Assembly: GCA_007280205.1 (NCBI GenBank)
Contig: QYPX01000133.1
Location: 1-38,811 of the forward strand
From: Comamonadaceae bacterium
Lineage (GTDB): Bacteria; Pseudomonadota; Gammaproteobacteria; Burkholderiales; Burkholderiaceae_C
DNA: 38,811 nt
Reading direction: 5' to 3'
A program made the translations under genes and the position numbers. Below the pieces are notes generated by a model. That model worked only from the letters and a program-made list of their open reading frames with translations. It was not told where the DNA came from and did not search any database. The number at the start of each line of letters is the position of its first letter. The first letter of the stretch is position 1. This document shows positions 2,914 through 17,370 of this stretch, piece after piece.

Positions 2914-3744
2914 CTAACCCTTGACCGCCCCTGCGGTCAGCCCGGTGATGATCTGCCGCGCGGCCAGGAAGGTGAAGATCAGCGGCGGTATCGCAATCAG
3001 ACTGCCCAGCGCCATGATCTTGCCCCAGTCCACACCAATGTCGGTGATGTAGAGCGATGCTGCCACCGGCAGCGTGCGCGTGGCGCGATCCGTCAGCACG
3101 AGCGCCAGGATGAACTCGTTCCAGGCGATGCGAAAAGTAAAGATGGAGGCCGCTGCAATGCCCGGTTTGATCAGCGGCAGCACCACTTTGTAGAACACCT
3201 TGATCGGACCGCAGCCGTCGATGGCAGCGGCTTCTTCCAGTTCTTTGGGCACCTGCAGGATGAAGCCGTAGAGCAGCCAGATCGCAAACGGCAGATTGAC
3301 CGCGACGTAGAGCAGGATCAGACCCCACAGTGAATTGATGAGGCCGACCTGGTTCCAGATCATGAACACCGGCACCGCCAGCACGGCCAGCGGCACCGTG
3401 CGCAGTAGCAGCGTGACGTAAGCCATGCTCTTGCGACCGGGAAAGCGAAAGCGCGCCAGACCGTAGGCCGCCATACAGCCCAGCACCAGCGTGATGACAG
3501 TGGACACCACGCCCACCATCAGGCTGTTGCCCAGGTAGCGCTTGAAACTGTCTTCGCCCAACACATCGCGGTAGTTTTCCAGCGTGGGCGCAAAGATGAA
3601 GTTGATGCCGGTATTGAAAATCTGCGTCTGCAGTTTCAGCGAGGTTGCAAACATCAGGATGATGGGCGCAACACACACCACGGCCAGCAAAATCAGCGTG
3701 CCGTAATGCGCGACAACCAGAGCGGGATGCCTTCGGACGCTCAT
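2914..3744 (-). CDS. sugar ABC transporter permease, MalG-like
   Basis: A 276-residue inner-membrane permease with six predicted helices. The cytoplasmic EAA loop, EEAAAIDGCGPIKVFYKVVL around residues 170-190, docks the ATPase and places it in the MalG/UgpE/ThuG class of carbohydrate importers. It is the last gene of an operon running ulaG, ATPase, binding protein, permease, permease on the minus strand. Its ATG shares one base with the stop of the preceding permease gene (TGATG). Specificity is set by the binding protein and cannot be read from this gene; the operon context points to a sugar, sugar acid or lactone handled by the UlaG-like lactonase. Confidence 0.92.
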   Translation of the reverse strand: MSVRRHPALVVAHYGTLILLAVVCVAPIILMFATSLKLQTQIFNTGINFIFAPTLENYRDVLGEDSFKRYLGNSLMVGVVSTVITLVLGCMAAYGLARFRFPGRKSMAYVTLLLRTVPLAVLAVPVFMIWNQVGLINSLWGLILLYVAVNLPFAIWLLYGFILQVPKELEEAAAIDGCGPIKVFYKVVLPLIKPGIAAASIFTFRIAWNEFILALVLTDRATRTLPVAASLYITDIGVDWGKIMALGSLIAIPPLIFTFLAARQIITGLTAGAVKG

Positions 3745-4622
3745 CAGCGCTCCTCATCCTTCAGCGGATTCGACAAGCGCAGCGCAAACCAGGACAGCCC
3801 GGCCACAACGATCAGCAGCAGCACCGAAATAGCCGCCGCGCCGCCCAGGCGCTGTCCCACGAAAGCGGTCTTGTAAATGTGCAGGGACAGGATCTCGGTA
3901 CTCTCACCGGGTCCGCCAAAGGTCAGGATGTAGATCACTTCCAGCACCCTAAAGGCATCGATCAGGCGCATCAGCAGGGTAATGGCAATCACGTTCATCA
4001 CCATCGGCAGCTTGACCCGGAACGTGGTTTGCCACCAGTTGGCGCCATCGACCCGCGCTGCTTCCAGCACCGCACCGTCGACATTGGCCAGCGCCGCAAT
4101 CATCATGATGAAAACAAAGGGCGTCCACTGCCAGATGTCGGCAATGATGATGGCCATGAAGGCCGTGTTCTCCTGTGCCAGCCAGCCCACGGGCGCATGG
4201 CCGAAGACCGCCAGGATGGCGTTGATCAGGCCAAACTGCGCATCGAACAGATAGCGCCAGGTCAGACCCACCGCGATCGGCGCAATCATCATCGGCAGGA
4301 TGAAGAGTGTGCGAAAGAAAGCCATGGCGCGCACCTGGCCTTCCAGCGCCAGTGCCAGCGCAATGCCCAGCACCATCTCCGCAGTGACGCAGACAAAGGC
4401 GAACAACAGCGTGGTGCGCAAGGAGCGCCACACCGACGGATCCTGAAAGGCCCGGCTGAAGGCGTCCAGCCCGACCCATTTGGCTTCACCCCAGGGCGTT
4501 CCCATGCTCCAGTCGTAGAACCCGAGCTGCAAGGCAGACAGCAGCGGGTACAGGCAGGCCGCCGCCATCACGGCGACAGCCGGGCCCAGATAGACCCAGG
4601 GAACCCACGCCGGGGTGCGCAC
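3744..4622 (-). CDS. sugar ABC transporter permease, MalF/UgpA-like
   Basis: A 292-residue permease, partner of the MalG-like subunit. It has an N-terminal helix (about residues 10-30, PAVAVMAAACLYPLLSALQL), further helices, and the EAA loop LEAARVDGANWWQTTFRVKL near residues 186-205. The start is GTG at 4622, three bases after the stop of the binding-protein gene, with AAGGG as ribosome site. Length and lack of a large periplasmic insert fit UgpA-like rather than enterobacterial MalF proteins. The two permeases should form a heterodimer that imports the ligand delivered by the periplasmic binding protein. No alternative family seems likely. Confidence 0.92.
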   Translation of the reverse strand: MRTPAWVPWVYLGPAVAVMAAACLYPLLSALQLGFYDWSMGTPWGEAKWVGLDAFSRAFQDPSVWRSLRTTLLFAFVCVTAEMVLGIALALALEGQVRAMAFFRTLFILPMMIAPIAVGLTWRYLFDAQFGLINAILAVFGHAPVGWLAQENTAFMAIIIADIWQWTPFVFIMMIAALANVDGAVLEAARVDGANWWQTTFRVKLPMVMNVIAITLLMRLIDAFRVLEVIYILTFGGPGESTEILSLHIYKTAFVGQRLGGAAAISVLLLIVVAGLSWFALRLSNPLKDEER

Positions 4623-4625
4623 CGG

Positions 4626-5966
4626 TCAGCCCTTCAGGTAGCCGCCACGTTTCATGATGTCGGTCACCTTGGGCACGATGCCGTCCAGCGCTTCTTTTGC
4701 CTTCTTCTTGCCGGTGAGTGCCTCGGAGACGGCAACACCCAGTGCCTGGATGTTGATCTCGTCCCACTCGGCAATGATCGGGCGCCAGTCGGGATCGGAA
4801 TACTCCAGTTGCTGACGCAGCGTGATGTACTCGGGGTACTGACGCACCATGTCCTGATCCATCATGGTCGAGTTACGACTTGGCACGCCACCGATGCGGC
4901 AAACCGCCTTGTCCTGCTCCTTGGAGGTAAGCCACTGCATCAAGAGGAAGGCGGCGTCGGCGTTCTTCGCGTTCTTCGGAATCGCCAGCCCCAGGCCGCC
5001 CGATTGCGAGGAATGACGCACGCCCTTGGGGTGCACCACGTAGCTCACCTGGCCGGCGATCTTGGATTTGCTCGGGTCATTGACCTGACCAAAGATCAGC
5101 GACGAATCCAGGTACATCGCCGCCTGCCCCTGCAGGAAGGACGTGATCATTTCGCCCTGACCGTAGCCCGGAATGCCGACCGGTCCGGTGTCGGAAACCA
5201 GCTTCAGGAAATTGAGCGCCTTGACGCCGGTCTCGTTGTTGAAGATCGGATTCCACTTGTCGTCAAACACCTTGCCACCGAGCGGATTCAGATGCAGCAA
5301 CCAGGCGTGAACGCACTGGTGGCCGGCCTGACCGCGCGAGGTCAGGGCGCCGATGCCGGCCTTGTCTTTCAGGATCGGCAGCAGCTTTTCGAACTCGGTG
5401 TAGTTATCGGGTGCCTTCAGGTTGTGCTTGGCAAAAATGTCGCGCCGATACGCCAGCACCGAGGTCTCGGCGCCATAGGGCATGCCGTAGAGCTTGGCGC
5501 CGGGGCCTGCCAGGTAACCCTTGGGGCCACCGACCAGACCCATGTTTTCCACATAGCGCGGCACCACGTCCTTGAAGTCGTAGTTGGGGTCCGCCAGCGC
5601 AGCATTCTTGAAGAAGGGATCGAGCTCGCGAATCAGGTTCTTCTTGACGTACTCACCCTTCCACATCACCACGTAGCAGATCAGGTCGTAGTCGCCAGAA
5701 GGCTTGGCCATCTCGAGCAACTGCTTGTCTTTCATGCGCGCCATCGCCAGCTTGTCCACCTCGACCTTGATGCCGGTCTGTTTGGTGAACTCGGGCAGCA
5801 GTTTCACCATGGCGTCATAGTGCGGGTGCGCCGGGATGCTCAGCACCACGGTCTGGCCCTTGTACTTGGCAAAGCGGTCCTGCGCGTAGCCAAACAATGG
5901 CAGCCCAGCGCCAAGCAGGCCCAGTGCGCCGCCACCAGCGGTTTGAATCAGTGTTCTTCTCTTCAT
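4626..5966 (-). CDS. extracellular sugar-binding protein of ABC importer (family 1)
   Basis: A 446-residue periplasmic binding protein. It opens with MKRRTLIQTAGGGALGLLGAG and a cleavage site after GYAQ; paired arginines before a hydrophobic stretch suggest Tat or Sec export. The body matches family 1 solute-binding proteins: TVVLSIPAHPHYDAM at the first strand, FTKQTGIKVEVDK, YGMPYGAETSVLAYRRDIF, FLQGQAAMYLDSS and QSGGLGLAIPKNAKN. I prefer ATG 5966 over 5969 or 5990 because AGGAG lies 7 nt before it, and the 5990 start would place that site inside the gene. It sits between the ATPase and permease genes of the same operon. The ligand is unknown; linkage to a UlaG-type lactonase suggests an ascorbate-like lactone or a sugar acid. 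Confidence 0.9.
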   Translation of the reverse strand: MKRRTLIQTAGGGALGLLGAGLPLFGYAQDRFAKYKGQTVVLSIPAHPHYDAMVKLLPEFTKQTGIKVEVDKLAMARMKDKQLLEMAKPSGDYDLICYVVMWKGEYVKKNLIRELDPFFKNAALADPNYDFKDVVPRYVENMGLVGGPKGYLAGPGAKLYGMPYGAETSVLAYRRDIFAKHNLKAPDNYTEFEKLLPILKDKAGIGALTSRGQAGHQCVHAWLLHLNPLGGKVFDDKWNPIFNNETGVKALNFLKLVSDTGPVGIPGYGQGEMITSFLQGQAAMYLDSSLIFGQVNDPSKSKIAGQVSYVVHPKGVRHSSQSGGLGLAIPKNAKNADAAFLLMQWLTSKEQDKAVCRIGGVPSRNSTMMDQDMVRQYPEYITLRQQLEYSDPDWRPIIAEWDEINIQALGVAVSEALTGKKKAKEALDGIVPKVTDIMKRGGYLKG

Positions 5967-5993
5967 CATCAATCTCCTAGAGGTTGTCAAAAA

Positions 5994-7082
5994 TCAAACG
6001 TGAACTCTCAGGCCGGTGCTCCGGTCGAAAGTGTGCAACTCGCTGGCGTCAAATTCGAGCGCAACGGTCTGGTGCAGCAGGTCAATCCGGTGCCCACCGA
6101 CCACGGCCGTGATGCGGTCTTCGCTGCCGCCAGCCAATTTACCCACCAACACCGATTCGGTTCCCAGGTACTCCACCACATCGACCTGCAACTGCAACAG
6201 GCCCGTGCCCGACGCCAGGCGCAGCGCCTGCGGTCGCACACCGGCTACCAACTGCGCCGGCCAGGGTCCTGCAACCGGCAGCGGTATCGAGAAGCCAGAT
6301 CCGCGCAGGAACATCTGATCGCCTTTCGGCGTCAGCGTGCCTTCCAGCAGGTTCATGCTGGGCATGCCGATAAAGCCGGCAACAAACCGATTGGCGGGTC
6401 GATTGAAGACTTCCGAGGGGGCGCCAACCTGCTGGATATGCCCCTTGTGAAAGATCACGATGCGCGACGCCAGGGTCATGGCTTCGACCTGGTCGTGGGT
6501 GACGTAGATGGTGGTCTTGCCCAGACGCTCGGGCAGCATCGCCAGTTCGGTGCGCATATGGCCGCGCAGCTTGGCGTCCAGATTGGACAGCGGCTCGTCA
6601 AACAGGAAGACTGCCGGTTCGCGCACGATGCAGCGCCCGATCGCGACCCGCTGACGCTGCCCACCGGACAGTTCTTTGGGCTTGCGCTTGAGCAGGTGCG
6701 TGATGTTCAGGATTTCGGCCGCTTCGTTGACGCGCTTTTCAATTTCGGCTCTGGGCTTGCCTGCCAGGTCGAGCGCAAAGCTCATGTTCTGCGCCACATC
6801 CATGTGCGGATAGAGCGCGTAGTTCTGGAACACCATGGCAATGTCGCGCGCCATCGGTGCCAGGTCTGTCACGTCCTTGCCATTGATGAAAATGCGGCCC
6901 TCGCTTGCATCCTCCAAGCCAGCGATCATGCGCAGCACCGTGGACTTGCCGCAACCGGATTCGCCGAGCAAGACCACGAACTCGCCCTGCTCCACCGTCA
7001 GATCGAGTTCCTGCACCACACTCACGCTGCCAAAGCGCTTGCTCACGCCCTGGAGTTGCAGACCGTGGACGGGGGAGCTCAT
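5994..7082 (-). CDS. sugar ABC transporter ATPase, UgpC/MalK-like
   Basis: A 362-residue ATPase energising the importer. It has Walker A GESGCGKST (about 38-46), Q-loop FQNYALYPH (about 85-93), signature LSGGQRQR, Walker B VFLFDEPLSNLD and switch histidine YVTHDQ, followed by a C-terminal TOBE-type domain from about residue 240 (FVAGFIGMPSMNLLEG onward). This is the MalK/UgpC arrangement used by sugar importers, and the C-terminal domain often carries regulation. The binding-protein gene follows after 27 nt. A palindromic repeat (7135-7228) separates this gene from ulaG, so its expression may differ from that of the first gene. Confidence 0.94.
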   Translation of the reverse strand: MSSPVHGLQLQGVSKRFGSVSVVQELDLTVEQGEFVVLLGESGCGKSTVLRMIAGLEDASEGRIFINGKDVTDLAPMARDIAMVFQNYALYPHMDVAQNMSFALDLAGKPRAEIEKRVNEAAEILNITHLLKRKPKELSGGQRQRVAIGRCIVREPAVFLFDEPLSNLDAKLRGHMRTELAMLPERLGKTTIYVTHDQVEAMTLASRIVIFHKGHIQQVGAPSEVFNRPANRFVAGFIGMPSMNLLEGTLTPKGDQMFLRGSGFSIPLPVAGPWPAQLVAGVRPQALRLASGTGLLQLQVDVVEYLGTESVLVGKLAGGSEDRITAVVGGHRIDLLHQTVALEFDASELHTFDRSTGLRVHV

Positions 7083-7134
7083 GGTGTGGCCTTCGATGGG
7101 TAGTAAGGGAAGATGGAAACTACCAATGTACTGC

Positions 7135-7228: not shown

Positions 7229-7267
7229 AACCGACGATTAACTGGTACTTTTTCAATTTCGATCTCC

Positions 7268-8332
7268 CTAAAGGAAGGACGGGAACGGCAGGTCGGTGTC
7301 TTTGCTAAAGACGTCGTCAAAGCCGCGTTCGTAGTGGTACTCCATGTCGTCCTTGTTGTCGGGGAAGACAAACTTGCCGCCGACCTGCCAGGTGAAGGGC
7401 TTGAACTTGTACTTGAGGCGGTCCTTCTTCATGTTCCACAGCATCGTGATTTCGGCCGGGTCTGCCATGAAGTTGGACCAGATGTCATGGTGGTAGGCGA
7501 TGACCACCTTGCAGTTCAGCGACTCGCCCATGCGCAGGATGTCCGACGAAGTCATCTTGTCGGTGACACCGCGCGGGTTCTCGCCGTAGCTGCCCAGGGC
7601 CACATCGATCTGGTGCTCGTTGCCGTGTTTGGCGTAGCCGTTGGCGTAGTGCGAATCGCCGCTGTGGTAGAGGCTGCCACCGGGTGTCCTGAAGAGGTAG
7701 TTCACCGCCACGTCGTCCATATCCGGTGGTAGCTTGCCCTTGGCGGTCTGGCCGGCCGGAATCGTTAGCGCCATGGTGCGGTCAAAGGCTTCGAGCACCA
7801 CAATCTCGACGTCGCCCACCTTGACCACGTCACCGGGTCGAACCGTGGTGATGCGCTCACGTGGCACGCCCCACTTGAGCCAGACATCGGTGCTCGATTG
7901 CGGGCCAATGAAGGGCACGGTGTCGGGGCAATTCTTCAGCACAGCGGCGGCGACATTGATGTCGATGTGGTCGTTGTGGGTGTGCGTGGACAGGATCGCG
8001 TCAACCTGGCGGATCGCGAAGGGGTCGATCACAAAGGGCGAGACGCGCAGATTGCGCTGCAGTTTGACGCAGCCGGTCATGCGCGCCATCTGGTGATGCG
8101 GGTCCATCAGCGGGTTCTTCATGGAGCGCTTGCCGGTGCCGCACCAGAGGTCGACACAGATGTTGGTATGGCCCTCGGTCTTGAGCCAGATGCCGGTGCA
8201 GGCCAGCCACCACATGGCAAAGGTGCCGGGTTTCACCTCCTCGCGCTCTATCTCTTCATTGAGCCAGCTTCCCCACTGCGGAAAGGTGCTCAGGACCCAG
8301 GATTCCTTGGTGATTTCGTCTACTTTTGCCAA
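7268..8332 (-). CDS. ulaG: L-ascorbate-6-phosphate lactonase UlaG-like, MBL fold
   Basis: At 354 residues this has the length of E. coli UlaG and resembles it over the whole protein. UlaG opens the lactone of L-ascorbate 6-phosphate to 3-keto-L-gulonate 6-phosphate using a metal site. Visible are the N-terminal [20 protein letters not shown] (11-30), the metal motif THTHNDHID (116-124, HxHxDH intact; E. coli has D for the second T), [12 protein letters not shown] (222-233), [13 protein letters not shown] (243-255) and [10 protein letters not shown] (279-288). The start is TTG at 8332 with AGAGG 8 nt upstream; the N-terminus aligns with UlaG. It is the first gene of the operon that continues into the ABC importer. 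No PTS is present, so the natural substrate may be phosphorylated after uptake or may differ from ascorbate phosphate. Confidence 0.92.
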
Positions 8333-8588
8333 TTTCTTTTCCTCTTAGCTGTTCCGGTTTCCATCGCGCGCAACGAACACAAACGATCAATTCGATCTGA
8401 ATATCAAGATAAACCCTATTATTATGAGCATACACAAACACCTTAATCGTCATTTTGATCTTTTTCATCTTTTATTGCGCAAGATCAAGTCTGTGCAAGG
8501 GGACGCCGGTAGGGGACAACACGCATAGCGCTCCAGGCAAATACCCCTACGATAGACATCACAAAAGTTCAATTTTTCGAGGAATCCC
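8333..8588. promoter_or_regulatory. divergent control region ulaG / acylase gene, with candidate operators
   Basis: This 256-bp stretch is much richer in A and T than its surroundings and must hold the promoters of both divergent units. GATCAATTCGA at 8385-8395, preceded by AAAC, matches GATCAAATTGA at 12040-12050 in front of the FG-GAP gene; the shared block is 13 of 15 bases. A second, opposite-strand relative (GATCAAAATGA read on the minus strand) lies at 8450-8460, and a weaker AGATCAAG at 8482-8489. I propose these as sites for the DeoR regulator at 13848. This is inference from repeated sequence only. Confidence 0.45.
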
Positions 8589-10952
8589 ATGACCCAGCGT
8601 GCAGCACGATTTGCCTCCCATCCTGTCACCCGGCTCATTCCGGTGGCCGCTGCCATACTCCTGAGCGCCTGTGCCAGCCCACCCGGTGCCGGGGATGCAC
8701 GCACCGCCACCATTGTGCGCACCGCCAACGGCGTGCCCCACATCACAGCGGGAGACCCTGAGACCCTGGCCTACGCCATGGCCTACGCCTACGCGCAGGA
8801 CAACGTTTGCATGACCGCCAACCAACTGGTCACCGTGCGCGGCGAGCGCTCGCGCTACTTTGGCGGAGCAACGCCGGGGCTGCTGGCGCGGCGCATGCTG
8901 CCCAATGAACAGGTTGACTTCTTTATTGCTGCCCACATGGACGATGCGGCGCTGGAGCGTGTCTGGGCCGGCAACGCCAGTGCCGAGTCCCTGGCGCTGG
9001 CACGTGGCGCGGTGGACGGCTACAACCGTTACCTGAGCGACCAGGCCGGCAAGCTGCCAGCGGCCTGTAACGGCCAGCCCTGGGTCAAGCCCATGACCTT
9101 GGCCGAGTTCCGGCGCCAGGCTGAGCTGACGGCCGTGCAGGCCGCCACCGCTGCGCTGGCTGATGCCGTCCTGGGTGCCAGGCCACCGGCGCCCACGGCG
9201 GCTGTTGCATCCACCGTCCCTCTTGCCGACGCCGCAGACGCCATGCGTGAGGCAGGCCTGCTCGACTCGCCACTGGGCTCCAACGCCTGGGCCTTCGGCA
9301 AGGACAGCACGGCCAACAGCCGTGGCCTTTTGCTGGGCAACCCGCACTTTCCATGGGCTGGCGTCAACCGTTTCTGGCAGGTCCATCTCACCATCCCAGG
9401 CAGCCTTGACGTCATGGGCGTGGGTATCGGCAACTTTCCGAATGTGACGATCGGCTTCAACAAGGACGTCGCGTGGTCACATACGGTGTCAACCGGCAAA
9501 CGCTTTACCTTGCACGAGCTGACACTCGCTGCGGGCGACCCGACCACCTACATGGTGGATGGCCAACCGGTCAAGATGAGCTCACGCAGCGTGAGCATTC
9601 AGGTGCGCGGCGCTGACGGCAGCCTGCAGCCAAAGACCACGACGGTCTGGTCAACCCGCTGGGGCCCGGTGCTGGTGGTGCCGCGCGCCGGTCTGAACTG
9701 GACCGCCAAAACGGCCTACGCCATCAAGGATGCCAACCTGGGCAATATGCGGGCAACCGATTCTTCGCTGGGCTTTGCCCGTGCACGCAATGTGCAGGAG
9801 CTGCGTGATGCCATGAAGAACATCGGCACGCCATGGGTCAACACCCTGGCCGCTGACAGGCACGGCAACGCACTCTACGCCGATGTGTCCGCGGTACCTG
9901 ATGTCGATGCGGCACAACTGCAGCGCTGTGCGCCGAGCAAGCCGGCGGCCGCTTTACTACCGGCGGCCGGCCTGGTGGTGCTGGATGGATCCAGGAGCGA
10001 CTGCGACTGGCGCCGCGACCCGAGCTCCGCAGTACCCGGACTCATTGCCTTCGAGCGCATGCCCATGACGGTGCGCAGCGACTGGGTGCACAACAGCAAC
10101 GACAGTTTTTTCTACACCCATCCGCAGCAGCAGTGGTCCGGCATCTCGCCCCTGGTCGGAATTGCCAGCATTTCACGCCCGCGCACGCGTGCCGGACTGA
10201 CCGAGATTCCCGAACTGCTCGCGCGCGGCAAGGTCACGCCCGACGCGGTGCAGCGTCAGCTCTTTGAAAACCACAACTTCATGGCCAGTGTCGTCGTTCC
10301 CGACCTGCTGGCGGCTTGCGCCAACGCCCCGAGCGCAGAAGCCCGCGACGGCTGCACAGCCCTGCGCGGCTGGGACCGCAGCAACAAGCTCGAATCGCGT
10401 GGCGCACATCTGTTCCGTGAGTTCTGGCGCGCAGCGCGCAGCGTGCCAGGTGTTCACCGTCTTGCCTTCGACCCCGCGCAGCCGGTCAGCACCCCGGCCG
10501 GCTTGAAAATGAGCGATGCCGCCGTCGCCGCCAAAGTGTGGGACGCACTGGCCGCAGCCGTCAAGGCGGTGCGCACTGCCGGTTTCGCCCTGGACGCACC
10601 GCTGGCTGCTGTACAGCGCCCACTGATCACCGACGAAGCCATCCCTCTGCACGGTGGTGACGAGTTCGAGGGCGTGCTCAACAACCTGGGCAACCAGTTT
10701 GCGCCAGGCATCAGTGCCAAGGGTCTAACCATCGACTACGGCTCGAGCTACATTCAGACCGTCACCTTCGACGAGCGGGGCCCACTGGCACAGGCCATCC
10801 TGACCTACGGGCAGAGCACCGATCCGGCCTCACCCCACGCCAACGATCAGATGCGATTGTTCTCCCGCAAGGAGTGGCCAACCTTGCCTTTCCATGCCGA
10901 GGATGTGGCAAAGGCCCGTGTCGGTGAAGTGCTGCGGCTGACCCGGCCCTGA
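8589..10952 (+). CDS. penicillin acylase family Ntn-hydrolase, lipoprotein
   Basis: A 787-residue member of peptidase family S45, amidases made as a precursor that cleaves itself into alpha and beta chains. The signal peptide ends ILLSAC, a lipobox, so the protein is probably lipid-anchored. The motif GSNAWAF places the beta-chain N-terminal nucleophile at Ser231, after Gly230; further family motifs are LGNPHFPW, NVTIGFNKDVAWSHTVSTG and NSNDSFF. The overall plan resembles acyl-homoserine lactone acylases (QuiP/PvdQ/AhlM) rather than penicillin G acylase, but the substrate cannot be settled from sequence. The start has GAGG 6 nt upstream. It is divergent from ulaG, sharing its control region, and convergent with the FG-GAP gene, so it stands in the middle of the sugar locus without an obvious enzymatic link. 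Confidence 0.88.
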   Translation: MTQRAARFASHPVTRLIPVAAAILLSACASPPGAGDARTATIVRTANGVPHITAGDPETLAYAMAYAYAQDNVCMTANQLVTVRGERSRYFGGATPGLLARRMLPNEQVDFFIAAHMDDAALERVWAGNASAESLALARGAVDGYNRYLSDQAGKLPAACNGQPWVKPMTLAEFRRQAELTAVQAATAALADAVLGARPPAPTAAVASTVPLADAADAMREAGLLDSPLGSNAWAFGKDSTANSRGLLLGNPHFPWAGVNRFWQVHLTIPGSLDVMGVGIGNFPNVTIGFNKDVAWSHTVSTGKRFTLHELTLAAGDPTTYMVDGQPVKMSSRSVSIQVRGADGSLQPKTTTVWSTRWGPVLVVPRAGLNWTAKTAYAIKDANLGNMRATDSSLGFARARNVQELRDAMKNIGTPWVNTLAADRHGNALYADVSAVPDVDAAQLQRCAPSKPAAALLPAAGLVVLDGSRSDCDWRRDPSSAVPGLIAFERMPMTVRSDWVHNSNDSFFYTHPQQQWSGISPLVGIASISRPRTRAGLTEIPELLARGKVTPDAVQRQLFENHNFMASVVVPDLLAACANAPSAEARDGCTALRGWDRSNKLESRGAHLFREFWRAARSVPGVHRLAFDPAQPVSTPAGLKMSDAAVAAKVWDALAAAVKAVRTAGFALDAPLAAVQRPLITDEAIPLHGGDEFEGVLNNLGNQFAPGISAKGLTIDYGSSYIQTVTFDERGPLAQAILTYGQSTDPASPHANDQMRLFSRKEWPTLPFHAEDVAKARVGEVLRLTRP

Positions 10953-10976: not shown

Positions 10977-12023
10977 TCAGGCCAGCGCCGTCTGGCTGAC
11001 GAAGTACAGCGCCGCTTCCGCCTTCTCCCGGTTCGCCGCCACGATGATGTCGCGAGTCGCTTCGTGGCGGACGTAAATATTGCTCGGACCGACGCCCTCT
11101 TCTATCACTTCGAGCTCAAACGCCAGCGGATCGTTTTTCGACGCGCGAACATAAAAAAGCTGCTGCTTGCCGCGCCGGCAACCGCCGATGAACACCGGCA
11201 CACCTGCCAGCGTGGTGCCGACCACCACGTGGTAGAACTCGGAGACCTCCGGATGCTCGTAGACCTTGCGGAACTGGCCGTCCATCTTCTTGTAGATGCG
11301 GAACCACGAACCATGAAAGGGTTCGATCGTGGCGAATTCAAGCTCGCCGTCGCCGTCGATGTCGACGGCTGAAATATCGCTGATCGGCCAGTCCATGAAC
11401 TGTTTGACCGTCCAGTCGGCACCCGGGCTCTGCGGCGGCGTCACCTCGAAGGCACCCTGCTCGCAGGTCACCAGCGCCGACATGCGCCCGATTTGCGTGA
11501 GACGGCTAAACCCATGGTTCTTGCTCAGACCATCCTTCAGAACACGGACCTCCAGCGCGCCCTTGCCAGTGAACTCGCCGACCCAGATCTTGCCCGGGTT
11601 CGACCAGTCTTCCTTGGACTCCTTGGTCGTTGCCAGCGTGCAGCCGATGAAGTAATGGCGGCCACCGACGGTCAGCAAATCGAAGCGATGGATGTAGGGC
11701 AGGTGCAGCACGTCGGTGACTTCATAGCCCCGATCAGCGAGCGGGCGCACATGGACGATCTTGGCCTCTTCCCACTGGAACATCTTGAAGAACTTCTGCA
11801 CCGCCAGAAACTCGCCATTGGTTCCCGGAATGGGGACCATCGACATGGTGCCGCCGGGCCCCTCCCAGACCGTGTGGGACTCGGTGTAGTCCACTCCGGT
11901 CCAGGCCAGGCAAGGCCCCTCGCCTTCGGTGGCCAGCAGAATGCGGGGCTCGCCATCGACCTCGATGCAGTTGGCCGAATAAACCCGGTTCATGGTGGTC
12001 AGAAAACGCTTTTCGATCTTCAT
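10977..12023 (-). CDS. cytosolic FG-GAP/VCBS-type beta-propeller protein, function unknown
   Basis: A 348-residue protein with no signal peptide or membrane segment. It has several FG-GAP-like beta blades. The clearest is AVDIDGDGELEFATIEPFHG at 219-238, whose DxDGDGxxE loop usually binds calcium. Similar strand patterns recur near 15-35, 105-130 and 255-295; other notable segments are SKNHGFSR (167-174) and GPSNIYVRH (312-320). Most FG-GAP proteins are secreted, so a cytosolic one inside a sugar locus is unusual. It faces away from the kinase/deoR unit, and its start lies 13 bp from the candidate operator at 12036-12050. It might be an enzyme (propellers occur in lactonases, epimerases and isomerases) or a ligand sensor. 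I do not assign a reaction. Confidence 0.7.
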   Translation of the reverse strand: MKIEKRFLTTMNRVYSANCIEVDGEPRILLATEGEGPCLAWTGVDYTESHTVWEGPGGTMSMVPIPGTNGEFLAVQKFFKMFQWEEAKIVHVRPLADRGYEVTDVLHLPYIHRFDLLTVGGRHYFIGCTLATTKESKEDWSNPGKIWVGEFTGKGALEVRVLKDGLSKNHGFSRLTQIGRMSALVTCEQGAFEVTPPQSPGADWTVKQFMDWPISDISAVDIDGDGELEFATIEPFHGSWFRIYKKMDGQFRKVYEHPEVSEFYHVVVGTTLAGVPVFIGGCRRGKQQLFYVRASKNDPLAFELEVIEEGVGPSNIYVRHEATRDIIVAANREKAEAALYFVSQTALA

Positions 12024-12035: not shown

Positions 12036-12050
12036 AAACGATCAAATTGA
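12036..12050. promoter_or_regulatory. candidate DeoR-type operator before FG-GAP gene
   Basis: AAACGATCAAATTGA differs at two of 15 positions from the sequence at 8381-8395 in front of ulaG, and has the same orientation and a similar place relative to the minus-strand gene. The core TCAA-A-TTGA is palindromic. It lies 13-27 nt upstream of the start codon at 12023, where a bound repressor would block transcription or ribosome entry. Confidence 0.45.
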
Positions 12051-12140: not shown

Positions 12141-12162
12141 CGAGAGACTCCTCAAGGTGGGC

Positions 12163-13680
12163 ATGAAAGCGATCATTACCGTCGACATCGGCACCAGCAG
12201 CAGCAGGGCAACCCTGTACGACGCCTGCGGCCATGCGGTGCACCTGGCCCAGCGCGAGAATCTGCCGGTTTTCTTCGATGACGGCAGGGTTGAGCAGGAC
12301 CCGCTGCAATGGCAGCAGGTGCTGCTGGAAACCTTGAAGTCGTGCTCGGAGGCAGCAAGCGCCAAGGGCCTGGAGCCGCTCTGCATCGCCGTCACCGCTT
12401 CGCGCTCATCCGTGATACCAGTGGACAGGCAGGGCACGCCCCTGCATCCGGCGATCATGTGGCAGGACCGGCGCAGCGCCGACATGGCGCAGGCCATGAG
12501 CGACGCCAACGCGCTGGTCTACAGCAAGACCGGCCTGAAGATTTCGCCGGTTTTTTCGGCCGTCAAGATGCGCTGGCTGCGCCAGCAGCGAGCCGACATC
12601 TGGAGCAAAACGCACAAGCTGCTGGGTATTCAGGATTGGGTGATTCACCTGCTCACCGGTCGCTTTGTCACCGACCACAGCTTTGCCAGCCGCACCAACC
12701 TGCTCAACTTGGAAACGCGCTCGTGGGACGCCGAACTGCTGGAACTGTTTGAAGTGCCGGCATCCATGCTTTGTGAGCTGGTGGCGCCGGGCTCGGTGGT
12801 GGGCGGCCTGAGCAAGGCCCTGGCCGCTGCGACCGGACTGCCTGCGGGCCTTGCGGTCGTGTCGGCTGCGGGCGACCAGCAATGCGCAGCACTCGGACTG
12901 GGACTGTTTTCCGGCGAGCGTGCCGTCTCCAACGCCGGCACCGGCTCCTACCTGATCGGGCACAGCGCCAAACCGGCGCTCGACGCTGGCATGCGCCTGG
13001 CCTGCAATGTGTCGGGCGTGCCGGACGCCTACATCGTCGAAGCCGCCGTGCTGACTTCGGGCACGATTTACCGCTGGTTCAAGGAATCTGTCTGCCAGAA
13101 CAACATCGGGCCCGAGCTGAGCTTCGAGCAACTGAACGCCGAGGCTGCCAGCGCCGTGGCCGGCTGCAACGGACTGCTGGCCCTGCCGCATTTCAAGGGC
13201 AGCGGCTCACCCTACTGGGACGCGCAGGCCCGCGGTGTCTTCTTCAACCTCACACTGGGCAGCACGCGCGGCGAGATGGCGCGCGCCATCCTGGAAGGCA
13301 TTGCCATCGAGATGCAGGCCAGCCTGGAACTGGTGGAGACTCTGTGCGGCGCCGTGCAGTCGGTCACGGTCTCGGGTGGCATGAGCAAATCCGACCTTTT
13401 CAACCAGATTCAGAGTGACGTGTTCGAGCGCCCGGTGGTTCGCTTTGACAACACGGAAGCCACTTCGCTGGGCGCATGGATTGCCGCTGCGGTTGCCGTC
13501 GGTCTGGAAGCCAGCTACCCGGCCGCCTTTCTACGCGCCCACAGCGGCAGTCGCTCGATTCGTTACGAACCCAATCCCGCCAACGCGCGCATCTATGCGC
13601 ACCGGCGAGCGCAGTCGCACGCGCTCTACCAGGCGCTGGCCACACCGGCGCTGCGCGAGCTGCTGAACCCACCGGACTGA
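12163..13680 (+). CDS. FGGY-family carbohydrate kinase (xylulokinase/LyxK-like)
   Basis: A 505-residue sugar kinase with both FGGY domains. Phosphate-binding DIGTSSSR is at 8-15, MWQDRR at 99-104, the catalytic-base motif AAGDQQ at 235-240, NAGTGSY at 257-263 and the C-terminal adenosine-site motif SGGMSKSDLF at 404-413. I use ATG 12163, with AAGG just upstream, rather than the in-frame GTG at 12157. FGGY enzymes phosphorylate xylulose, ribulose, glycerol, gluconate and related substrates. With UlaE and UlaF homologues nearby, L-xylulose (or 3-keto-L-gulonate, as proposed for LyxK in the yia pathway) is a reasonable guess. The DeoR gene follows on the same strand after a 167-bp gap that holds a palindromic repeat. 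Confidence 0.88.
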   Translation: MKAIITVDIGTSSSRATLYDACGHAVHLAQRENLPVFFDDGRVEQDPLQWQQVLLETLKSCSEAASAKGLEPLCIAVTASRSSVIPVDRQGTPLHPAIMWQDRRSADMAQAMSDANALVYSKTGLKISPVFSAVKMRWLRQQRADIWSKTHKLLGIQDWVIHLLTGRFVTDHSFASRTNLLNLETRSWDAELLELFEVPASMLCELVAPGSVVGGLSKALAAATGLPAGLAVVSAAGDQQCAALGLGLFSGERAVSNAGTGSYLIGHSAKPALDAGMRLACNVSGVPDAYIVEAAVLTSGTIYRWFKESVCQNNIGPELSFEQLNAEAASAVAGCNGLLALPHFKGSGSPYWDAQARGVFFNLTLGSTRGEMARAILEGIAIEMQASLELVETLCGAVQSVTVSGGMSKSDLFNQIQSDVFERPVVRFDNTEATSLGAWIAAAVAVGLEASYPAAFLRAHSGSRSIRYEPNPANARIYAHRRAQSHALYQALATPALRELLNPPD

Positions 13681-13714
13681 ACCAACATGAGCAAACCCAA
13701 ACAGAGTCAAACCA

Positions 13715-13836
13715 AATACTGTTCACTCAATGTCATTGCGGGCTCGACCCGCAATCCATGTCCCAGGCACGCATGGATGCCGGATGTTGAAACCCCGGAC
13801 CCGATCCGGGGCCGGCATGACAAAGTGAACAGTATT
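13715..13836. repeat. palindromic repeat copy 2 nested in a 13-bp inverted repeat
   Basis: The inner part, 13731-13822, is the 92-bp element also found inverted at 7135-7228: TGTCATTGCGGG start, TTGCGGG-CTCGA-CCCGCAA, TCCATG/CATGGA, CCCCGGA-CCCGA-TCCGGGG and GGCATGACA end. Outside it, AATACTGTTCACT (13715-13727) and AGTGAACAGTATT (13824-13836) are perfect inverted copies. Without the inner element the outer arms would form one compact palindrome between the kinase and deoR. The simplest reading is insertion of the mobile repeat into an existing palindrome, perhaps an operator or terminator. The right arm ends just before the deoR ribosome site GGAG (13837-13840), so folding could affect deoR translation. 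Confidence 0.8.
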
Positions 13837-13847
13837 GGAGTCAAACC

Positions 13848-14621
13848 ATGAAGGTATCGAATTACCGACACAAGAAAATTCTCGAGATGCTGGCACAGCG
13901 CCAATCGGTCTCGGCCGACGAACTCGCTGCCGAGTTCGGCGTCTCCAAGATCACGATCCGGCGCGACCTCGACGCCCTGGCCACGCACAAGCTGCTGGAG
14001 CGCACGCGCGGTGGCGCGATCTCGGTCTCCGGCTTGCGCATGGAAGAATTCTTCGAGGAAAAAGACCATTCAGCCAAACGCGAGAAGAGCCTGATTGGCC
14101 GTTACGTCGCAACGCTGATTTCAGAGAACGAAACCGTTTTTTCCAACGGCGGCTCCACCACGCTGGAAGTGATCCACCATCTGCGTGGCAAAAAGGCCCG
14201 CATCGTCACCAACAACGCCGCCTGCCTGGCGCTCGACCTGGACCCAGAGCAGGAGTTGATCCTGCTTGGCGGTGATTACCGTATTCACTCCAAGTCACTG
14301 GTAGGGGACCTGACCCTGACCGGTCTGCACGGCATTTTTTCCAGCGTCACCGTGCTGGGCATCAACGGCGTCAGCATCAAGAAGGGTTGCACCAGCGCCG
14401 TCAGCACGGAAACCAGCGTCAACAAGGCCATGATCGAGAACTCCAGCGGCAGGGTCATCATCGTGGCCGACCATACCAAGATGAACTGCGTATCGAGTTT
14501 TCTGACCAGCCCCCTGAGCCGGATCGACATGATCGTCACCGACTGGTTGACGCCACTGGCGTTCTGCGAAGAACTGCAGGCCACCGGCGTGCAGGTGGTC
14601 CGGGTGCCGGACGAAGCCTGA
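13848..14621 (+). CDS. DeoR/GlpR-family transcriptional regulator
   Basis: A 257-residue regulator, the normal length for the family. The N-terminal winged helix-turn-helix (residues 5-55) contains SVSADELAAEFGVSKITIRR, with the recognition helix near 32-42. The C-terminal DeoR sensor domain has SNGGSTT (99-105), VTNN (120-123), LLGGDYR and the terminal VADHTK motif, which bind sugar phosphates or related ligands. It follows the FGGY kinase gene and lies between the two arms of the ula-like locus, so it is the natural candidate to control them; UlaR, the E. coli repressor of ulaG, is also of this family. ATG 13848 has GGAG 7 nt upstream. The ligand is inferred to be a phosphorylated intermediate of the pathway. 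Confidence 0.9.
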   Translation: MKVSNYRHKKILEMLAQRQSVSADELAAEFGVSKITIRRDLDALATHKLLERTRGGAISVSGLRMEEFFEEKDHSAKREKSLIGRYVATLISENETVFSNGGSTTLEVIHHLRGKKARIVTNNAACLALDLDPEQELILLGGDYRIHSKSLVGDLTLTGLHGIFSSVTVLGINGVSIKKGCTSAVSTETSVNKAMIENSSGRVIIVADHTKMNCVSSFLTSPLSRIDMIVTDWLTPLAFCEELQATGVQVVRVPDEA

Positions 14622-14623
14622 TC

Positions 14624-15004
14624 TCAGGAATGCAGCTGGGGACGGTACGCCTTGTTCAGCTCCACTGCAAGCAACTCAAACTTCTTGTCCAAAGTCCAGA
14701 TCAATGCCTTCTCGCTGAGCAAAGCGCCAGCCAGCAGACTCATGTCGACAAAACCACAGCCTCGGCCGTAGATTTGACGGGCATCCATCATTGCCAGTAA
14801 CTCATCCTGCGTGGCGACAGGTGCACTTTCCAGCTCGGCAAGCATGCCAATGATGGCTTGTCGACCGGGAGGGGTTCCACAAGCCACTTCGGCAACGACG
14901 TAGGGGTGACAGATCACTGCGCCGTCCTCAAGCAGTGCGACCAAATGATCGTTGCGCTGCTTGAAGTGCCCGACCCACACAGAACTGTCGACCAGCACAC
15001 TCAT
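14624..15004 (-). CDS. vapC: VapC-type PIN-domain toxin
   Basis: A 126-residue PIN-domain ribonuclease. The acidic residues expected at the metal site are visible: Asp6 in VDSSVW, Glu39 in VVAEV, Asp87 in GFVDMSLL and Asp106 in TLDKKF. The N-terminal SVLVDSSVWVGHF is typical for VapC. It overlaps the antitoxin gene by 4 nt, the standard antitoxin-first order on the minus strand. It lies 2 bp from the end of the deoR gene and converges with it, so the module separates deoR from ulaF. It is probably an acquired module rather than part of the sugar pathway. Confidence 0.93.
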   Translation of the reverse strand: MSVLVDSSVWVGHFKQRNDHLVALLEDGAVICHPYVVAEVACGTPPGRQAIIGMLAELESAPVATQDELLAMMDARQIYGRGCGFVDMSLLAGALLSEKALIWTLDKKFELLAVELNKAYRPQLHS

Positions 15005-15207
15005 GAAAGCGTTGCCTGTTCACGACGACGCGGCACCATCTCGATCTCTGGCACCGTGCCACCCAGCGCCGCCAGCCGACGCGCGGTCTGCCGCTGAATG
15101 AACGCCTTCACGCACTCTCGAATCAGCTCGGATTTCTCCATGCCGGGCTCGGCCAGGGAAATGGCTTTGTCGAACAAGTGGTCATCAATGGTGAGAGTGG
15201 TTCGCAT
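15001..15207 (-). CDS. vapB: VapB-type antitoxin (ribbon-helix-helix)
   Basis: A 68-residue protein starting MRTTLTIDDHLFDKAISL, the arc-type ribbon-helix-helix DNA-binding N-terminus of VapB antitoxins, followed by KSELIRECVKAFIQRQTARRLAALGG. The C-terminal tail IEMVPRRREQ should wrap the VapC active site. AGGAG lies 9 nt before the ATG. Upstream is a tandem array of GCATCA/TGATGC half-sites (15220-15265) that is likely to be its autoregulatory operator. Confidence 0.92.
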   Translation of the reverse strand: MRTTLTIDDHLFDKAISLAEPGMEKSELIRECVKAFIQRQTARRLAALGGTVPEIEMVPRRREQATLS

Positions 15208-15219
15208 GGCGTGGCTCCT

Positions 15220-15265
15220 GCATCAATAAAGACATCATTTTGCATCAACTTCAACATCATGATGC
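15220..15265. promoter_or_regulatory. candidate VapB operator: two tandem 22-bp units
   Basis: GCATCAA, five variable bases, then ACATCAT and a variable tail occurs twice in direct succession at 15220-15241 and 15242-15263. The second unit ends in TGATGC, so 15242-15265 is also an inverted repeat GCATCA/TGATGC. The array ends 13 bp before the vapB start, overlapping where its promoter must be. Multi-site binding of this sort is typical of RHH antitoxins; binding itself is inferred. Confidence 0.5.
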
Positions 15266-15395
15266 GATTGTCATAAGAAATTGGTCTTGATGACGCTGCT
15301 TGCAAAACCGTCTTCCCGAGTCGACCAAATTTGGATGCCAGGAAGCAGCCGGTGATGGGCGCCGGCTGAGTGCCGACGTTCAGCGCAGCCGTAAG

Positions 15396-15541
15396 CCAAC
15401 CTTGTCGGCACAGGTTGGTGAGGGCCGATGACAGCAGGACAGATGGCTCCACTCATGTCCCCCGCAGAGGGCTGCGCCCTCTGCTCCTTGACTTGGCAAA
15501 ACCCCAAGTCCACGTTGCACCATCCGTCCCGCTGTCATCGG
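15396..15541. repeat. compound palindromic element with nested hairpins
   Basis: Arms at 15424-15446 and 15519-15541 are inverted copies matching at 21 of 23 positions (GCCGATGACAGC facing GCTGTCATCGGC). Between them are two perfect hairpins: GCAGAGGGC-tgc-GCCCTCTGC at 15464-15484 and GACTTGG-N7-CCAAGTC at 15490-15510. Just outside the left arm is a third, CCAACCT-N9-AGGTTGG at 15396-15418. Single strands would fold into a long stem topped by two stem-loops. No open frame fits it. It could be a miniature inverted-repeat element, a recombination site or a structured RNA; sequence alone does not decide. Confidence 0.6.
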
Positions 15542-15616
15542 CAACGAGCAATGTTGGTTTGCAATGACTCAATACCCATTTGTGTACCCACAATGCTGGC
15601 CGACGCAGGACGGCGT

Positions 15617-15682
15617 GGCGCTCAACGCAGTGAGGTCAAGGAGGAGGCCGAAGGCCGGGGGACACGAACGGAGTTGAGTGCC
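15617..15682. repeat. inverted repeat with inner GGCC hairpin
   Basis: GGCGCTCAAC (15617-15626) and GTTGAGTGCC (15673-15682) are inverted copies matching at 9 of 10 positions. Between them lies GGCCGAAGGCC, a short perfect hairpin. It may be part of the same decayed element as the palindrome at 15424-15541. Confidence 0.4.
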
Positions 15683-15821
15683 ATGTCGTCATGCGTCACC
15701 GACGGTCCTGGTATTACGATGGGCTTCTGTTGGTCGCCTGTCGGTGCTCCCTCGGACGAAGTCATCCCAACATTGCCGACCATCGGTCTGTTGATATCAA
15801 CGTCCGGCTTGGAGGGGCGTT

Positions 15822-16517
15822 TCAGCCCTGCCCGTAATAAGCCCCGGGGCCGTGCTTGCGAAAGAAGTGTTTTTCCAGCAACTGCTGCGGCATCGCCGGC
15901 AAGCTGCCGTCCATCTGCAGCGTGAGCAGCGCCATGCGCGCCACCACTTCCAGCACGGCGGCGTTGTGTACCGCGGCATCGGCATCAGCGCCCCAGGCAA
16001 AGGGGCCGTGATTGGCCACCAGCACCGCCGGCATCTGGACCGGCGTGAGGCCGCGCTGACGCAGGCAGTCGACGATGGCAACACCGGTTTGCGCTTCGTA
16101 CTGGCCGGCAATCTGCTGCTCGGTCAATCTGGCGGTGCAAGGAATCTCGCCGAAAAAATAGTCGGCGTGCGTTGTTCCCAGTGCCGGGATGCCGCGGCAG
16201 GCCTGCGCCCAGACCGTAGCCCAGCTCGAATGCGTATGCACGATGCCGCCCAGTTCTGGAAAGACCCGGTACAGCTCCAGATGCGTCGGAGCATCGGATG
16301 AAGGCTTCAACTTCCCCTCCAGCACGGCGCCGTTGGCGTCGAGCACCACCATGTCCATTGCCGTCATGCGCTCGTAGGGCACGCCGCTGGGTTTGATGAC
16401 GATGGCGCCACTGGCAGCGTCGCGGCCGCTGACATTGCCCCAGGTGAAGTCAACCAGACCGAGCCGGGGCAGTTCCAGGTTCGCTTCCAGCACCTGCTTC
16501 TTCAGTGCTTCAAGCAT
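15822..16517 (-). CDS. ulaF: L-ribulose-5-phosphate 4-epimerase (UlaF/AraD-like)
   Basis: A 231-residue class II aldolase/epimerase that converts L-ribulose 5-phosphate to D-xylulose 5-phosphate. Residues known from AraD are in place, each shifted by one: Asp75 in SSDAPTH, zinc ligands His94 and His96 in IVHTHSSWA, Asp119 in HADYF, His170 in ANHGPFAWG and Tyr228 in AYYGQ. I place the start at ATG 16517; the same frame is open further back but that part is the reverse frame of ulaE. It overlaps the end of ulaE by 8 nt, so the two are coupled. It performs the last step that feeds ascorbate-type or L-xylulose catabolism into the pentose phosphate pathway. Confidence 0.93.
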   Translation of the reverse strand: MLEALKKQVLEANLELPRLGLVDFTWGNVSGRDAASGAIVIKPSGVPYERMTAMDMVVLDANGAVLEGKLKPSSDAPTHLELYRVFPELGGIVHTHSSWATVWAQACRGIPALGTTHADYFFGEIPCTARLTEQQIAGQYEAQTGVAIVDCLRQRGLTPVQMPAVLVANHGPFAWGADADAAVHNAAVLEVVARMALLTLQMDGSLPAMPQQLLEKHFFRKHGPGAYYGQG

Positions 16518-17370
16518 GGTCGTAGCCCCCTTGTTGCAGACGCTCGCCAACCCACTTGCGGGCCTTCGCAATCTCGGCCAGCGGGTCGGCTGCTTTCTCG
16601 GTCCACATCTCCACCAGGAAGGGGCCGGCGTAGCCCAGCCCATGCAGGGTCTTGAAGCAGTGAACAAAGTCCACCGTGCCTTCGCCAAACGGCACATCGC
16701 GAAAGGCCCCCGGAAAATTGGGACCGACCGGTTTCGTCTCTTTGACATGGACGCCGACGATGTGGTGGATGCCCGCCGTCAGTTCTTTCGCCACATCGTT
16801 GCCCCACGCAGTCAGGTTGCCCAAGTCCGGATAGACCTTGAACCAGGGTGAGGGCAGTTGCTCCTTGAGCACCAGGTACTTCGAAATGGAGTTGAGAAAA
16901 GGCGTGTCCATGATTTCCAGCGCCAGCATGACCTGGTGCTGCGCCGCCACCTCCAGCGCACGCGCCATGCCTTCAAGGTAGCGCTGCCTGGAGTCCTGCG
17001 TGGTGGGTTCGTAGTAAACGTCATAACCGGCCAGCTGAATTACCCGGATGCCGGTGTCGCAGGCAAAGCGGATCGCCTTCTCCATGAAGTCGGCCGCCTG
17101 CTGGCGAATCGCAGGGTCGGCGCTGCCAAAAGGGATCTTGCGATGCCCGGACAGGCACATCGAAGGCACGGGTACGCCACTTTCGCGCGACGCCTTGAAG
17201 AACGCCAAGCGCTCACCGAGTGTCCAGTCGAGTCGTGCCATGCGCTCGGGTGTTTCGTCGACCGAAATCTCCAGAAAATCGTAGCCGGCGCGGCTCGCCG
17301 CCTCGAATCTCTGGCTCCAGTTCAGGTCCTTGGGAAGTGCTTTTTCGTAGATGCCAACGGGCTTGTTCAT
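16510..17370 (-). CDS. ulaE: L-ribulose-5-phosphate 3-epimerase (UlaE-like)
   Basis: A 286-residue TIM-barrel sugar-phosphate isomerase, close in length to E. coli UlaE, which interconverts L-xylulose 5-phosphate and L-ribulose 5-phosphate. Metal ligands expected in this family are visible: Glu152 in ALEIMDTPF, Asp182 in VYPDLGNL, His208 in VGVHVKET and Glu254 in FLVEMWTE. The N-terminus MNKPVGIYEKALP fits; the frame upstream of ATG 17370 has no family character. It is the first gene of the ulaE-ulaF pair on the minus strand, divergent from marC across 57 bp. That gap contains AAACGATC on the minus strand (17372-17379), the first eight bases of the candidate operators near ulaG and the FG-GAP gene. 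Confidence 0.93.
   Translation of the reverse strand: MNKPVGIYEKALPKDLNWSQRFEAASRAGYDFLEISVDETPERMARLDWTLGERLAFFKASRESGVPVPSMCLSGHRKIPFGSADPAIRQQAADFMEKAIRFACDTGIRVIQLAGYDVYYEPTTQDSRQRYLEGMARALEVAAQHQVMLALEIMDTPFLNSISKYLVLKEQLPSPWFKVYPDLGNLTAWGNDVAKELTAGIHHIVGVHVKETKPVGPNFPGAFRDVPFGEGTVDFVHCFKTLHGLGYAGPFLVEMWTEKAADPLAEIAKARKWVGERLQQGGYDHA

Follow-up and report, generated by a model that had tools for sequence, protein, structure and literature searches.

A 38,811-nucleotide stretch from a Comamonadaceae bacterium (contig QYPX01000133.1 of assembly GCA_007280205.1, positions 1 to 38,811; hereafter the window) carries, between positions 2914 and 17370, a set of genes that recalls the ula genes of Escherichia coli. 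UlaG, UlaE, UlaF, an ATP-binding cassette (ABC) importer of the carbohydrate uptake transporter-1 (CUT1) type, an FGGY-family kinase and a DeoR-family regulator were all verified there (Table 1). From position 2914 the minus strand encodes two ABC permeases, a sugar-binding protein (SBP), a UgpC-type ATPase and UlaG, after which an acylase lies on the plus strand. An FG-GAP protein, here called FGGAP, follows on the minus strand, divergent from the plus-strand FGGY kinase and DeoR regulator; next come a VapBC pair and then UlaF and UlaE, again on the minus strand. The region is probably a catabolic locus for L-ascorbate or a very similar aldonolactone, where unrelated proteins would do the work of both the phosphotransferase system (PTS) UlaABC and the decarboxylase UlaD, two steps of the E. 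coli ula route.

The original prediction, made from the sequence alone, had placed here UlaG, UlaE and UlaF homologues with intact active sites, a complete sugar ABC importer co-directional with ulaG, an FGGY kinase and a DeoR regulator, and these identifications hold. All three Ula proteins score above their NCBIfam cut-offs. The top PDB match of UlaG is E. coli UlaG 2wyl (635 bits, 354 of 354 residues), and the HxHxDH, SGDSH and HHD motifs are retained. UlaE aligns with E. coli UlaE 3cqh at 350 bits and keeps EIMD, YPD, HVK and EMW; the metal ligands of UlaE are Glu, Asp, His and Glu. The start of UlaF was set at 16517 from the sequence, and the protein stays under the araD equivalog TIGR00760 (348 against 389). 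The importer (2914-7082) is complete, with two permeases, SBP and ATPase, and shares the minus strand with ulaG; the closest PDB chains to its SBP are 5iai, a sugar ABC protein, and 4rya, a sorbitol SBP. Kinase and regulator are both identified by Pfam matches. The kinase also matches 12 FGGY models of NCBIfam and reaches no cut-off (XylB 283 bits against 380, the other 11 also under); glycerol kinases are its closest solved structures, with gluconate kinase lower in the same list.

Comparison with related loci points to FGGAP as the substitute for UlaD. A non-exhaustive scan of GTDB genomes with six UlaG peptide patterns yielded 63 loci (designated by L numbers), with UlaG 60-96% identical, whose genes were annotated by phmmer at >100 bits with the window and E. 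coli K-12 proteins as queries. FGGAP is present at 35 loci and UlaD at 21 (20 distinct, since L042 appears to duplicate L041), and the two are never found together; seven loci have neither. In three of those seven (L009, L015 and L017) FGGAP lies on another contig of the genome, beside ulaE-ulaF, while the L049 genome has UlaD and the L062 genome a UlaD fragment. FGGAP is spread over Pseudomonadota, Bacillota, Fusobacteriota and Chloroflexota.

The exclusion extends to whole genomes. A 20-row UlaD profile was searched against 44 genomes, of which 35 have FGGAP (L024 was left out), and in none of the 35 was a match judged to be UlaD; the positive controls L027 and L052 gave 357 and 325 bits. 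Two matches above noise (110 and 73 bits), found in the genomes of L021 and L036, were rejected: both lie in other neighbourhoods, have hexulose-6-phosphate synthase as their best NCBIfam match (134 and 229 bits, respectively, against a cut-off of 200) and fall far under the UlaD cut-offs. Seven of the 35 genomes gave weak matches only (E 0.065-0.32). Among 11 more FGGAP genomes, one of which holds only a fragment of the gene, UlaD was found in one, Leptotrichia hongkongensis, and partial matches of 22-24 bits over about 65 residues in three (G753, G995 and G1062). UlaD is thus present in one of 46 FGGAP genomes, and there in a separate operon from FGGAP, which makes it unlikely that the UlaD step is encoded elsewhere. 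The reverse test agrees: FGGAP occurs in one of 21 UlaD genomes (L049 and the L062 fragment included, L038 left out), again L. hongkongensis. Several FGGAP genomes are named strains, among them Propionivibrio soli, P. dicarboxylicus, Clostridium algoriphilum, C. psychrophilum, C. vincentii, Eubacterium multiforme, Pectinatus brassicae, Hungatella hathewayi and Streptobacillus notomytis, so the absence of UlaD is probably not just a matter of metagenome bins.

The position of FGGAP in operons tells a similar story. Gene order varies among relatives. In four clostridial-type loci (L035, L037, L040 and L051) the order deoR / ulaG-ulaC-ulaA-ulaB-FGGAP-ulaF-ulaE recurs, without ulaD and with gaps between open frames (stop to stop) of at most about 160 bases. 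In Vagococcus (L065) the order is ulaG-C-A-B-D-E-F, and ulaD holds the very slot that FGGAP has in those four. In Hungatella (L036) the arrangement is ulaG-FGGAP-ulaF-ulaE, accompanied by an FGGY kinase gene and by ABC genes, among them one for a Peripla_BP_4 binding protein. A search with the FGGAP family's own profile through 398 genomes of the phylum of the L035 genome gave eight matches including that genome. Four of the seven new ones (L108, L110, L111 and L112) have a PTS-type ula locus that lacks ulaD; the contig of L109 is cut and carries FGGAP, ulaG and the first part of ulaA, with no ulaD seen. The most telling is L113, where the order is FGGAP-ulaE-ulaF-GntR-LyxK-TIM-barrel-MFS-YiaL-PanE-like (MFS, major facilitator superfamily), with no ulaG or sgbH within the 12 kb read and no UlaD in the genome: the reaction that the ula and yia routes have in common directly before the epimerases is the decarboxylation of 3-keto-L-gulonate 6-phosphate. 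In L114 a C-terminal FGGAP fragment (8328-8717) adjoins ulaF, probably a decaying locus.

All FGGAP copies whose surroundings were read adjoin ula- or yia-type genes, and none was found on a plasmid. The family looks rare, as wider sampling at E ≤ 1e-10 gave only the genome already known in each case: one of 61 in the order of the L113 genome, one of 151 in the phylum of the L054 genome and one of 249 in the phylum of the window's own genome. UlaG itself is rare in near relatives (within the family, two of 299 genomes at E ≤ 1e-30; within the class, two of 369 above the model cut-off).

Exchange between the two genes can also be followed on a 68-row UlaG tree (four of 72 rows having been dropped; IQ-TREE in its quick mode, with SH-aLRT, an approximate likelihood-ratio test, as the only support measure), in which L009, L015 and L017 were labelled FGGAP from the other contig of the same genome. 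The FGGAP and UlaD labels change five times, four of these changes being forced by starred branches, and all four independent pairs go in opposite directions. The clear cases are Streptobacillus, with FGGAP, next to Leptotrichia, with UlaD, and a betaproteobacterial FGGAP clade amid UlaD rows.

The window's own genome adds less. Its assembly (4.19 Mb, 276 contigs, 84% complete) gave no match to the OMPdecase family PF00215, detected in 14 of 14 control genomes, and none to the UlaD profile, so that no UlaD was found elsewhere in that assembly. A search for PTS UlaABC was likewise negative: no EIIC-GAT PTS permease was found in the assembly and no ascorbate PTS in the window. PyrF, an expected PF00215 match, also went unseen, so with an assembly 84% complete this absence alone proves little and may be partly an assembly effect; the UlaD case therefore rests on the relatives. 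The gap at 14.6-15.8 kb of the locus was considered as a hiding place for UlaD and rejected as well, as it holds VapBC and phmmer of the window's frames shows no UlaD-like frame.

How would the substrate be loaded? At a threshold of >60 bits, 30 of the 63 UlaG loci have a PTS and 26 an FGGY kinase, with both at a single locus (L063, where ulaG is split) and neither at eight. Among these eight, the contigs of L015 and L017 are cut, UlaD at L028 and L041 (with its copy L042) is accompanied by genes for an MFS transporter and a kinase of the PfkB type, and ABC genes occur at L048, L049 and L052, all from Trueperaceae. The MFS and PfkB genes stand in place of the PTS at L028 (6119-9949, Acidobacteriaceae) and L041 (7145-14856, Phycicoccus), and may represent a third way of loading the pathway. 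FGGAP occurs with FGGY at 24 and with the PTS at 11 of its 35 loci, and UlaD with the PTS at 17 and with FGGY at none of its 21; by these pairings FGGAP is not tied to one mode of uptake, nor UlaD to the PTS. One PTS-type locus, L021, has UlaG 82% and FGGAP 81% identical and yet its UlaG branches within the ABC/FGGY clade (support 97, starred; 83 at the fork that joins it with L061, L019, L022 and L023). The near-exclusion of PTS and FGGY, together with the place of L021, supports an importer and a kinase doing the job of the PTS. That the ligand enters unphosphorylated and receives its phosphate from the FGGY kinase, as had been predicted, thus gains support: PTS and FGGY are apart at 62 of 63 loci, the eight with neither included.

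The structure of FGGAP was predicted with AlphaFold2 from 36 sequences. The model (pLDDT 93.8, pTM 0.92) is all-beta with 28 strands and was read as a propeller of seven blades of four strands. Its top Foldseek matches are the EPTP propellers of LGI1 (template-modelling score 0.69-0.73, 10-11% identity), and by sequence no credible relative was found among solved structures (best E 0.96). The protein has 348 residues, and its N-terminus, MKIEKRFL, shows no signal peptide by eye and looks cytosolic. Pfam FG-GAP stays under its cut-off in the seven members scanned, and 30 of 36 members match it at E ≤ 1. There is no Pfam or NCBIfam match to the UlaD family, and the all-beta model is not a TIM barrel. 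There is one DxDxDG loop, in which D221 and D225 are invariant and D223 and G226 are present in at least 90% of members.

In VCBS propellers the strand before a DxDxDG loop is designated strand A, according to the accessible part of PMC8023676. Thirty-three positions are invariant across 21 diverse FGGAP members, and 11 of them, including Y15, H112, R113, N169, H170, H265 and N315, lie no more than three residues from one of the seven A-strand starts, a zone of 49 of the 348 positions (p 0.0025, uncorrected; of four strand types tested, A gave the best value). Because strand A is the inner one in each propeller blade, in the model these residues should line a central pocket. The three invariant histidines, with Arg, Asn and Tyr, could form a metal site, which is a guess from the model.

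Regulation provides a further link between ulaG and FGGAP. A palindrome, GATCAAAWTGATC, was sought at up to two mismatches within 250 bases upstream of genes in 22 betaproteobacterial FGGY-type loci, the window among them. All 22 loci have it both upstream of ulaG and upstream of FGGAP; in-gene stretches of the two genes gave none in 44, and five in 44 when three mismatches were allowed. In L011, L016 and L020, where FGGAP lies beside ulaE-ulaF and away from ulaG, the palindrome is still upstream of FGGAP. Upstream of ulaE it was found in two of 12, and exact 9-mers common to the ulaE and FGGAP upstream regions number only three, at one locus. The three best matches in the window lie at 8382, 8450 and 12037, and a 14-base version with up to three mismatches occurs nine times against 3.2 expected, a count reached by one of 100 shuffles.

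Table 1. Genes and proposed operators of the ula-like locus, in window coordinates
Feature	Position	Strand	Basis or place
ABC sugar permease, MalG/UgpE type	2914..3744	-	Pfam BPD_transp_1; NCBIfam under cut-offs
ABC sugar permease, UgpA/MalF type	3744..4622	-	Pfam BPD_transp_1
CUT1-type sugar-binding protein (SBP)	4626..5990	-	Pfam SBP_bac_1, 131 bits
UgpC/MalK-type ATPase	5994..7082	-	NCBIfam NF008653, 453 bits (cut-off 432)
UlaG, L-ascorbate-6-phosphate lactonase	7268..8332	-	NCBIfam NF008688, 630 bits (cut-off 306)
GATCAAAWTGATC-type palindrome, two copies, proposed operator	8382-8395, 8450-8463	.	upstream of ulaG
PvdQ/penicillin-amidase-type acylase	8589-10952	+	between ulaG and FGGAP
FGGAP (FG-GAP protein), predicted seven-bladed beta-propeller	10977..12023	-	Pfam FG-GAP, sub-threshold only
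GATCAAAWTGATC-type palindrome, proposed operator	12037..12050	+	between the divergent FGGAP and FGGY genes
FGGY-family carbohydrate kinase	12157..13680	+	Pfam FGGY_N/FGGY_C
DeoR-family regulator	13848..14621	+	Pfam HTH_DeoR and DeoRC
VapBC pair: VapB antitoxin and PIN-domain VapC	14624-15207	-	between deoR and ulaF
UlaF, L-ribulose-5-phosphate 4-epimerase	15822..16517	-	NCBIfam NF006047, 356 bits (cut-off 257)
UlaE, L-ribulose-5-phosphate 3-epimerase	16510..17370	-	NCBIfam NF009689, 413 bits (cut-off 200)

Two of the tabulated features stand outside the ula-like system. An acylase at this spot occurs in the window and in L005 (7.4-9.8 kb) and at none of the rest of the 63 UlaG loci; it is probably a recent insertion. 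The VapBC pair is an insertion as well. Farther along the window, an ABC importer of the NMT1 type (minus strand) adjoins xanthine-dehydrogenase-type molybdopterin subunits (plus strand) at 18067-24702, a possible system for uptake and oxidation of a purine or N-heterocycle. A gene set resembling metal efflux of the resistance-nodulation-division type, by eye from the translations, occupies 29949-35986, and an HD-domain protein lies at 37532-38809, both on the minus strand.

These observations can be assembled into a route. The substrate would enter through the CUT1-type importer and be phosphorylated inside by the FGGY kinase, in place of the PTS UlaABC. UlaG would open the 6-phosphate lactone to 3-keto-L-gulonate 6-phosphate, which FGGAP would decarboxylate to L-xylulose 5-phosphate in place of UlaD, and UlaE and UlaF would complete the route to D-xylulose 5-phosphate. 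The DeoR regulator would control the ulaG-ABC unit and the divergent FGGAP and kinase-deoR units through the common GATCAAAWTGATC palindrome. It is from exclusion, operon position and elimination that we infer 3-keto-L-gulonate 6-phosphate decarboxylase (KGPDC) activity for FGGAP. The original prediction had considered the UlaD step either encoded elsewhere or replaced, and had named the FG-GAP protein as a candidate for a missing step. Replacement by FGGAP is the alternative that the comparisons favour, and the candidate now has comparative support from locus exclusion, tree swaps and the ulaD operon slot. In its boldest form the proposal makes FGGAP a new family of metal-dependent propeller beta-keto-acid decarboxylases, isofunctional with UlaD in the ascorbate/diketogulonate routes of several phyla, and the FGGY enzyme an ascorbate kinase that spares the PTS; this we regard as possible, somewhat short of an even chance.

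Several points weigh against the proposed route. We know of no beta-propeller decarboxylase of this kind, nor of decarboxylation of this sort in the propeller fold class. L. hongkongensis carries both genes, UlaD within the ula operon and FGGAP in another cluster that lacks ulaE and ulaF, so the role of FGGAP may be different or wider. The genomes of L048 and L063 have UlaG and neither UlaD nor FGGAP, and three of 16 FGGAP genomes examined have no UlaE at E ≤ 1e-20. There are only four supported independent swaps (sign test p = 0.125), too few for significance by themselves, and they come from a tree of the quick kind with some long branches. The ulaEF genes of the window have no palindrome, which is also absent (3-5 mismatches) from five non-proteobacterial FGGAP loci tested. 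The palindrome contrast is weaker than its figures, because the pattern was derived from some of the same regions, the loci are closely related, and the in-gene controls consist of coding DNA of unmatched base composition. Two of these loci have features of their own. In L063 (10001-11063, Clostridium bowmanii) ulaG is broken into two reading frames. In L. hongkongensis (L107, 7383-14224) FGGAP lies with YiaL, a 2-hydroxyacid dehydrogenase, a GAT-type PTS IIC, an amidohydrolase and a LyxK-like kinase, and may serve a second route in this organism.

Could FGGAP be something other than the decarboxylase? It might be an accessory or different enzyme, a lyase, a mutarotase or a protein of lactone handling, with 3-keto-L-gulonate 6-phosphate losing its carboxyl group spontaneously or by the action of an unrelated enzyme encoded elsewhere. 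Non-enzymatic loss of CO2 is possible for beta-keto acids, the weak Pfam relative of FGGAP is a dehydratase propeller (PF22301, matched by two of 36 members at E ≤ 1, the best at 20.1 bits, in L045, against a gathering score of 27), and FGGAP and UlaD do occur together in L. hongkongensis. An accessory gene should, however, co-occur with UlaD and not exclude it. Exclusion at the locus level over four phyla, repeated swaps and the presence of FGGAP at the ulaD slot make such a role distinctly improbable.

Replacement of UlaD by FGGAP could also hold for another substrate, be it a different aldonolactone or directly imported 2,3-diketo-L-gulonate or 3-keto-L-gulonate, phosphorylated by the FGGY kinase. 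The closest solved relatives of the SBP bind sorbitol or sugar, the kinase reaches no NCBIfam cut-off, and FGGAP also lies away from ulaG, beside LyxK, MFS and YiaL genes, in L113. Against this, UlaG is far over its cut-off, the ascorbate PTS family accompanies FGGAP at 11 of 35 loci, and L021, with its closely similar UlaG and FGGAP, combines the PTS with a place inside the ABC/FGGY clade. A substrate other than L-ascorbate or a close analogue, such as the further lactone or sugar acid for which the original prediction had allowed, appears unlikely. Very improbable, and largely refuted, is a chance patchwork of unrelated sugar genes without a coherent pathway. The inserted acylase and VapBC and the varying gene order would suit it, but ulaG, FGGAP and an FGGY kinase are together at 24 of 63 loci, 21 of which, with the window, made up the palindrome test.

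If L-ascorbate or a close analogue is the substrate and FGGAP the decarboxylase, a family without a Pfam or NCBIfam match above cut-off acquires a concrete, testable function. The use of vitamin C-like compounds could then be explained in bacteria that have no ascorbate PTS or UlaD, betaproteobacteria of lake metagenomes included, and pathway tools that demand UlaD or UlaABC would overlook these genomes. Among the matches listed in a literature search, which left most subscription journals outside its scope, there was no published replacement of UlaD of this kind and no use of the term "ascorbate kinase". The accessible part of a survey of UlaG loci in more than 100 genomes (PMC3219644) reports a ulaABCDEF unit in all of them, despite rearrangements, insertions and losses, and describes in Catonella morbi an uncharacterised duplicated protein after ulaF. 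This protein could be an FGGAP. The words "ascorbate" and "ulaG" are absent from the accessible main text of an FGGY kinase study (PMC3245297), and alternative regulators for ascorbate are mentioned in the accessible part of PMC3616900.

Among known systems, aldos-2-ulose dehydratase (AUDH) is a zinc enzyme that acts on keto sugars and has cupin domains, for which the 348 residues of FGGAP leave no room. The accessible part of PMC8023676 describes a VCBS propeller in AUDH, and a VCBS-type seven-bladed propeller is what FGGAP, by its model, would share with it. FGGAP remains under the PF22301 gathering score and AUDH is not among the best 50 of 681 Foldseek matches (E ≤ 0.001), so the resemblance serves as a lead only. 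With UlaD and SgbH, of the orotidine monophosphate decarboxylase (OMPDC) suprafamily, FGGAP would share its reaction and its pathway position; it is unrelated to them in sequence and in fold, a propeller by its model and not a TIM barrel.

The E. coli yia genes (yiaK, yiaMNO, lyxK, sgbH, sgbU and sgbE) combine, like the present locus, an FGGY kinase, a decarboxylase (here the proposed one) and two epimerases. SgbH is a UlaD homologue, and FGGAP is in that place here and in L113; the window's locus has neither YiaK nor genes for a tripartite ATP-independent periplasmic (TRAP) transporter. The closest likeness is to the E. coli ula regulon (UlaR, UlaG and UlaABCDEF), with which the locus has in common UlaG, UlaE, UlaF, a DeoR-family regulator and D-xylulose 5-phosphate as the expected end product. 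An E. coli-type regulon would show an ascorbate PTS, at the locus or in the genome, and UlaD; in their stead the locus has an ABC importer, an FGGY kinase and FGGAP.

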